This document shows, in pieces, positions 20,427 through 32,388 of a DNA stretch of 64,000 bases. This DNA comes from Rikenellaceae bacterium. GTDB lineage: Bacteria > Bacteroidota > Bacteroidia > Bacteroidales > Rikenellaceae. Both the position numbers and the translations under genes were made by a program. Under the pieces are notes generated by a model that saw nothing but the letters and a program-made list of their open reading frames with translations, made no database searches and was not told the origin of the DNA. The stretch is from contig JAFRZW010000002.1 of the NCBI GenBank assembly GCA_017442365.1, forward strand, positions 124,001 through 188,000, read 5' to 3'. Numbering within the stretch: position 1 is the first letter of the stretch; the number at the start of each line of letters is the position of its first letter.

Positions 20427-20485
20427 TATATAGTAACAAGTCAAAATATAATATAAGGAGTAATAAACCTTTACGGTTTTCTTCG

Positions 20486-20603
20486 CGCGACCTGCGGTCG
20501 CGTAGGCAAATATGACCCACCCCCAAACCCCCGCCTCAGGCAGGGGCTTAGCCACGCTGAGCGTGGCGGGTGCAAGTGGGGCGCAGATGGCGTCGGGGTG
20601 GGT
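20486..20603 (+). repeat. Structured intergenic repeat, family 1, copy A
   Basis: Between uppP and truB. A 5' hairpin CGCGACC-TGC-GGTCGCG (20486-20502) is followed after 12 nt by a 35-nt core (20515-20549). The core itself can fold through the CCCCGCCT/AGGCAGGGG region. One nucleotide later comes a 3' hairpin with a 7-bp stem (20551-20567). The element is closed by ACCCACCCC (20515-20523) pairing with GGGGTGGGT (20595-20603). Copy B (32251-32328, minus) has the same core at 34 of 35 positions and the same spacings. It looks like a REP-type element or structured RNA, not a simple terminator, because no T-run follows. Confidence 0.75.
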
Positions 20604-32048: not shown

Positions 32049-32081
32049 AAATTCAAAATTCAAGATTCAAGATTCAAAATT
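32049..32081 (+). repeat. AT-rich tandem heptamers (ATTCAAA/ATTCAAG)
   Basis: Four to five tandem copies of ATTCAA(A/G) directly after the U32 gene. The same unit recurs at 41348-41380, 41462-41477, 41685-41708 (inverted) and 63185-63230, always between genes. Confidence 0.75.
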
Positions 32082-32114: not shown

Positions 32115-32190
32115 TCGAAATTCGTTGAATTTCGTCATTATCTGCGGCTCGCGCAAACGAAGTTGCGCGCCCCCCCCAGCCGCAGATAAT
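32115..32190 (+). repeat. Nested palindromic repeat, family 2, copy 1
   Basis: A small hairpin CGAAATT/AATTTCG (32115-32133) precedes a large element. Its 14-bp perfect outer stem has the left arm at 32135-32148 (ending GCGGCT) and the right arm at 32177-32190. Inside is a 7-bp inner hairpin CGCGCAA/TTGCGCG (32149-32168), then exactly eight C residues (32169-32176). The element at 41572-41618 has the same architecture with an unrelated stem sequence. Confidence 0.75.
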
Positions 32191-32250
32191 GAGATTAAGA
32201 TATAATAAAAACGAAAATTAAACGTATAACTTTTATAAAGAACCACACTC

Positions 32251-32328
32251 GCCGCATAGCGGCAAAGCCCCTGCCTAAGGCGGGGGTTTGGGGGTGGGTA
32301 AAACTTGCAACCGCGACGGCACGTCGCG
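32251..32328 (-). repeat. Structured intergenic repeat, family 1, copy B
   Basis: Reading the minus strand: 5' hairpin CGCGACG-TGC-CGTCGCG (32328-32312), a 12-nt spacer, the 35-nt core (32299-32265), one nucleotide, then a 3' hairpin GCCGC-TAT-GCGGC (32263-32251). The core differs from copy A at one position. The apical pair of the 5' hairpin is swapped from C-G to G-C, and the 3' stem has a different sequence yet pairs fully. It lies antisense to both flanking genes. Confidence 0.75.
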
Positions 32329-32388
32329 CGTCAAGGAGAGCAAAGAATAGTACGACATAACATATAAACAACGTAAAAACTTTACACT

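Follow-up and report, generated by a model that had tools for sequence, protein, structure and literature searches.

The window, a 64-kb stretch of a Rikenellaceae genome, contains two copies of a structured repeat: copy A, which lies between uppP (BacA) and truB, and copy B, which lies upstream of an aminopeptidase P gene (Table 1). Direct reading of the sequence gave the arrangement that the original prediction had described, with core identity, spacers, stem lengths and loops all as claimed. On the plus strand, copy A consists of the hairpin CGCGACC-TGC-GGTCGCG, a 12-nt spacer, a 35-nt core (20515-20549), a single nucleotide and the hairpin GCCACGC-TGA-GCGTGGC. Copy B follows the same layout on the minus strand, with CGCGACG-TGC-CGTCGCG, a 12-nt spacer, the core (32299-32265), a single nucleotide and GCCGC-TAT-GCGGC. 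The two cores are identical at 34 of 35 positions, with a single difference between them. When the window was searched for the core as a pattern with up to 3 mismatches, copies A and B were the only 2 matches, against a shuffled expectation of 0.00.

The 35-nt core is a hairpin itself, bringing the number of hairpins to three in each copy. Its 11 bp pair fully only on the complementary, G-rich strand, where the two C/A mismatches seen on the strand first considered become two G-U pairs, and where the core reads AAGCCCCTGCC-loop-GGCGGGGGTTT followed by TGGGGGTGGGT. Folding z-scores were also better on the G-rich strand in all 7 of the 7 copies folded (for copy B, -4.6 as compared with -1.4). 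Because of the full pairing and the better folding scores, we describe the element on this strand, in the order variable hairpin 1, conserved hairpin 2, GGGGTGGGT tail, short CAGAYTTGYAAA-like spacer, variable hairpin 3 and a roughly 58-nt right arm. Copy A ends in a further GGGGTGGGT, which is an inverted copy of the start of its core. The right arm of copy B resembles another copy, located upstream of a thioredoxin-reductase-like gene (L022).

Table 1. Features of element copies A and B in the window, with bit scores for models R1 and R2.
Feature	Position	Strand	Context or basis
Copy A, three-hairpin cassette	20484..20575	-	antisense to truB; R1 97.3 bits, R2 88.4 bits
Copy A, hairpin 1 (7 bp, 3-nt loop)	20551..20567	-	direct reading and folds
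Copy A, hairpin 2 (within the 35-nt core; 11 bp including two G-U)	20525..20549	-	direct reading and folds
Copy A, GGGGTGGGT tail of hairpin 2	20515..20523	-	inverted partner ACCCACCCC read 20603 to 20595 on the same strand
Copy A, GGGGTGGGT, inverted partner of the hairpin 2 tail	20595..20603	+	direct reading; core start reads ACCCACCCC
Copy A, hairpin 3 (7 bp, 3-nt loop)	20486..20502	-	direct reading and folds
Copy B, three-hairpin cassette	32243..32330	+	sense to the aminopeptidase P gene (start codon 32389); R1 103.6 bits, R2 92.3 bits
Copy B, hairpin 1 (5 bp, 3-nt loop)	32251..32263	+	direct reading and folds
Copy B, hairpin 2	32265..32289	+	GGGGTGGGT tail follows, to 32299
Copy B, hairpin 3 (7 bp, 3-nt loop)	32312..32328	+	direct reading and folds
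Copy B, right arm, hairpin 3 to start codon	32329..32388	+	

Two other repeats were observed in the neighborhood of copy B. A second palindromic repeat at 32135-32192 has 15-bp perfect arms (TCATTATCTGCGGCT/AGCCGCAGATAATGA) around CGCGCAAACGAAGTTGCGCGCCCCCCCC; 46 of its bases occur exactly at G000:C16:63337-63382, and similar palindromes adjoin element copies at two further loci (L005 and L008). An AT-rich run at 32049-32081 (AATTCAAAATTCAAGATTCAAGATTCAAAATT) occurs dozens of times in the window genome and in related genomes.

The original prediction had proposed a covariance search of the genome and its relatives, and model searches of both recovered further copies. The window genome, which comes from an Alistipes-type member of the Rikenellaceae and measures 1.9 Mb at 96% completeness, holds 8 strong copies, and model R1 matched in 37 of the 61 genomes of the genus, with listed counts per genome from 0 to at least 72. 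The richest genome, G048, contained 118 copies in the 1.95 Mb read. Exact matches to the core in a collection of named genomes came from metagenome-assembled genomes (MAGs) labelled Alistipes or Rikenellaceae, one of which (L011) carries copy A at the same place. Among the 294 genomes of the order that were searched, matches beyond the genus were weak only and occurred in 11 others. In most of these weak matches hairpin 2 recurs together with its tail, as in TTATCCCCTCCTTGGAGGGGGTAGGGGGTGGGT; in the other Bacteroidales families this unit is repeated within each genome, has flanks of its own and sometimes forms inverted pairs. Rfam 15 yielded no match at gathering score in the window; in nine loci, none covered the element even when E was relaxed to 1. 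Phages and plasmids were considered as carriers and rejected, as no match to either was found.

We then asked how pairing behaves across copies. In an alignment of 71 distinct copies, 94.7% of pair cells were standard, as compared with 82% after shuffling and 43-51% after sliding of the 3' partners, and 176 cells had changed on both sides as compared with 45 in shuffles; relatedness among the rows inflates such covariation counts but leaves the direction of strand bias unaffected. Two-sided changes were present at all 7 pairs of hairpin 3 and at all 5 of hairpin 1. Since the 71-copy alignment had been fitted to the structure, the test was repeated on a many-genome set of 30 copies with MAFFT and RNAalifold. 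This independently predicted hairpin 3, each of whose 6 pairs had changed on both sides in 3 to 14 sequences. Structure is maintained by compensatory change across copies. More than two copies exist and pairing-preserving changes recur in relatives, and the covariation proposed from the two window copies is thereby upheld.

The hairpins differ in their strand preference. The pair cells of hairpin 2 included 99 G-U and 0 A-C, indicating that the G-rich strand is the constrained one, while hairpin 3 is built almost only of perfect pairs and has no strand bias (3 G-U and 3 A-C cells). The suggestion that the repeat is an RNA whose core is fixed and whose stems vary is accordingly borne out as to shape, with constraint on the G-rich strand; the RNA itself is putative. 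Paired changes might also accumulate without selection, if template switching during replication corrected imperfect hairpins in otherwise inert repeats. Hairpin 3 has the composition that such correction would yield. However, correction would remove the two G-U pairs that hairpin 2 holds throughout the genus, and the pairing and the tail both persist in other families of the order, so that we consider this explanation unlikely. DNA-level correction may add to the paired changes of hairpin 3, but it leaves hairpin 2 unexplained.

The ends of the element were recognizable in at least three related genomes (G048, G014 and G055), whose full-length copies measure 187-272 bp and are bounded by terminal inverted repeats (TIRs) and 8-bp target duplications. 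The TIR consensus is GG(T/C)(A/G)ATTATATAC. Many copies in G048 start with GGCGATTATATAC and end with GTATATAGTTACC or GTATATAATCGC, and the TIR motif had 49 matches in this genome as compared with 2 for a reversed control; in G014 and G055 the element ends are GGTAATTATATAC...GTATGTAAGCACC. When the 8-mers flanking 20 full-length copies were compared, mean agreement was 6.55 of 8 positions, versus 3.45 for permuted pairs, and 7 of the 20 had exact duplications (for example CCTATTTT, TATTACAA, TAAATAAT and TCTGTTTA). A previous test of 21 copies from G048 gave a concordant result (z of about 7 over permuted pairs). The duplicated targets are A/T-rich. Together, the TIRs and the 8-bp duplications are what a transposase of the 8-bp-duplicating kind leaves on insertion. 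Copies in the window genome have no recognizable terminal repeats and no significant target duplication. The right arm of the G014 elements is nevertheless 58 nt long, comparable to the 55-62 nt that separate hairpin 3 from the ATG in six copies of the window genome.

Some variation in length and flanks was also noted. A subfamily of 265-272 bp (G048:C1:59911-60181 and similar) has additional conserved sequence, GGATTTGCGGAACAAGTTCCGC...CGGCCGCAGTTGG, inserted at the central hairpin, and this insert occurs in two different element backgrounds. At a folB-side locus of RGIG973 (L012, 366-456), the element is flanked by the direct repeat TACTCAACCGTGATAAG, longer than the 8-bp duplications at other loci, one copy of which is the 3' end of the adjoining gene. 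Target duplications of about 20 bp were considered for this locus and for copies A and B; as they were not significant over permuted pairs, long target duplications are not claimed.

The original prediction had named a RAYT-type transposase as the possible mover and had pointed to a linked Y1/RAYT gene as something to look for. Neither expectation was borne out. PF01797 (Y1/HUH transposase) was found neither in the window genome nor in any of the 61 genus genomes, copy-rich ones included, nor in 3 genomes of another genus of the same family; the control genomes were positive. PF01797 is common in other Bacteroidales. Of 30 Y1 loci fetched outside the genus, one (L211, about 1046-2140, on G088:C9, from another Bacteroidales family) has on both sides of the Y1 gene a tandem array of hairpins, AGCCCCAGCCTGAAGGCTGGGGTTRGGAGTAG, with a period of about 43 bp; these hairpins resemble hairpin 2, and the layout is REPtron-like. 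The remaining loci lacked the element core at their flanks. Given this one array and the frequency of PF01797 in other Bacteroidales, an ancient link of the core to REP systems is possible. Movement of a REP/BIME as single-stranded DNA by a RAYT (Y1 HUH), whether still active or confined to the recent ancestry of the genus, would fit palindromic, intergenic repeats in many copies, the inverted core pairs of other Bacteroidales, the inverted GGGGTGGGT pair in copy A, the Y1 gene with its resembling array, and the atypical repeated structures that flank RAYT subclass 2.6 of Bacteroidetes (PMC6006769). However, the lack of PF01797 from the genus, together with the TIRs and 8-bp duplications of full-length copies, leaves a RAYT unsupported as the present mover, and we regard this account as quite improbable. 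IS1595 and ISL3 transposases were likewise rejected as movers, being present in few genomes and having different ends. An autonomous partner sharing the ends was sought in 1.95 Mb of G048, where no long stretch was found to combine flanking TIRs with a matching target duplication.

Copies are placed between genes. In G048, 45 of 46 were intergenic, in all gene orientations, as judged from gene calls by a simple coding-potential script rather than curated annotation; the sole exception overlaps a 162-nt open reading frame called on the element itself. Fifty copies from other genomes were, by the same kind of gene calls, also intergenic and mixed in orientation, and over the whole family the right-hand gene is sense or antisense about equally often. 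The window genome is more regular, with 6 of its 8 copies in sense to a gene, hairpin 3 ending 55-62 nt before the ATG. The genes that follow encode aminopeptidase P, a protein with an FeS-assembly domain, LpxB, triosephosphate isomerase, a pyridine nucleotide-disulphide oxidoreductase and FKBP. Comparison with G018, a close relative whose TruB is 95% identical, revealed no element at either window locus: truB lies almost directly after its upstream gene, and the aminopeptidase P leader is continuous across the insertion point of copy B, with cassette and right arm both missing. Among the orthologous genus loci fetched, only the window genome had a copy at the window places; another genome, G016 (L186), has one copy on the far side of truB. 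With both sites filled in the window genome and empty in G018, the element shows insertion polymorphism, though absence in the relative could partly be due to loss. These lineage-specific insertions, the many copies and the covariation across relatives support the earlier description of a scattered, mobile, REP/BIME-like repeat whose structure persists as its sequence changes. That the element is a cis-acting leader RNA regulating the downstream gene, as the sense copies 55-62 nt before housekeeping genes and the constraint on the G-rich strand might suggest, is highly improbable, since orientation is mixed over the family, the genes are unrelated, copies are missing at orthologous genes of relatives and copy A is antisense to truB. 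Orientation and absence at orthologues contradict such a role for the family as a whole; single copies could have been co-opted as leaders.

Prokaryotic MITEs are short, non-coding and intergenic, with TIRs, direct repeats of 7-9 bp and transcripts predicted to fold stably (PMC10969869). The element resembles Correia/NEMIS, ERIC, QMITE2 of Coxiella burnetii and BrickBuilt of Porphyromonas gingivalis in being short, non-coding and intergenic and in having TIRs and direct repeats. Unlike these, it has a different sequence, a separate three-hairpin cassette with covarying stems inside the terminal repeats, no matched mobilizing IS and, in the window genome, copies without recognizable ends. With REP/BIME/REPIN sequences and their RAYT (TnpA_REP) it shares palindromic extragenic repeats, covarying stems, a G-T-rich foot beside a hairpin and, in other Bacteroidales, inverted pairs. 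It differs from them in the lack of a Y1 transposase in the genus, in its multi-hairpin unit and in the 8-bp duplications and TIRs of full-length copies. The REP definition in PMC6006769 places a GT[AG]G foot 5' of the hairpin, whereas the GTGG of the element lies, on the constrained strand, 3' to hairpin 2. CGTC-tagged REPs (PMC3733652) are likewise palindromic repeats with no linked or dedicated transposase, but the Alistipes element is a multi-hairpin cassette with TIRs and target duplications in several genomes. Our literature search found no paper on a MITE or REP of Alistipes, or on the sequence of this element in Bacteroidetes; palindromic Bacteroidetes sequences are among the candidate RNAs that a human-microbiome survey (PMC8040213) lists. 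The family appears to be a new one within the known MITE-like kind. What sets it apart most is the genus-wide covariation, together with a core common to other families of the order.

Taken together, copies A and B probably belong to a non-coding, MITE-like mobile repeat family of Alistipes-type bacteria. The family is dispersed and polymorphic in its insertions, and it bears terminal repeats and target duplications in the three genomes. As to mechanism, a transposase of an 8-bp-duplicating type, acting in trans, would insert copies into A-rich spacers, often just before start codons. The window copies would descend from full-length elements, their ends since lost or replaced; we infer this descent because they share the cassette, their insertions are polymorphic and their right arms have a similar length of about 58 nt. 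The hairpins may persist through a benefit of the folded G-rich strand, which, in RNA or single-stranded DNA form, would aid spread of the element or limit harm to the host. Contrary to this MITE-like explanation, the window-genome copies lack recognizable ends, the searches gave no mobilizing transposase whose ends match, and spacing to the start codon in the window genome is more regular than random insertion predicts. A more tentative extension is that the hairpin and its GGGGTGGGT tail form a Bacteroidales-wide module, adopted by different mobile repeats with different flanks, whose folded G-rich strand would be recognized by a host or element factor; the Alistipes MITE would then be a DNA transposon whose spread needs an internal RNA or single-stranded DNA structure.

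The family provides a clear case, in gut bacteria, of a MITE in which compensatory change preserves the internal hairpins; its copy numbers range from zero to more than 100 among species of one genus. It also cautions that compensatory changes between repeats of one genome are, alone, no proof of a host regulatory RNA. Finally, it allows a direct question to be put: is the spread of a MITE affected by a structured RNA or single strand within it?
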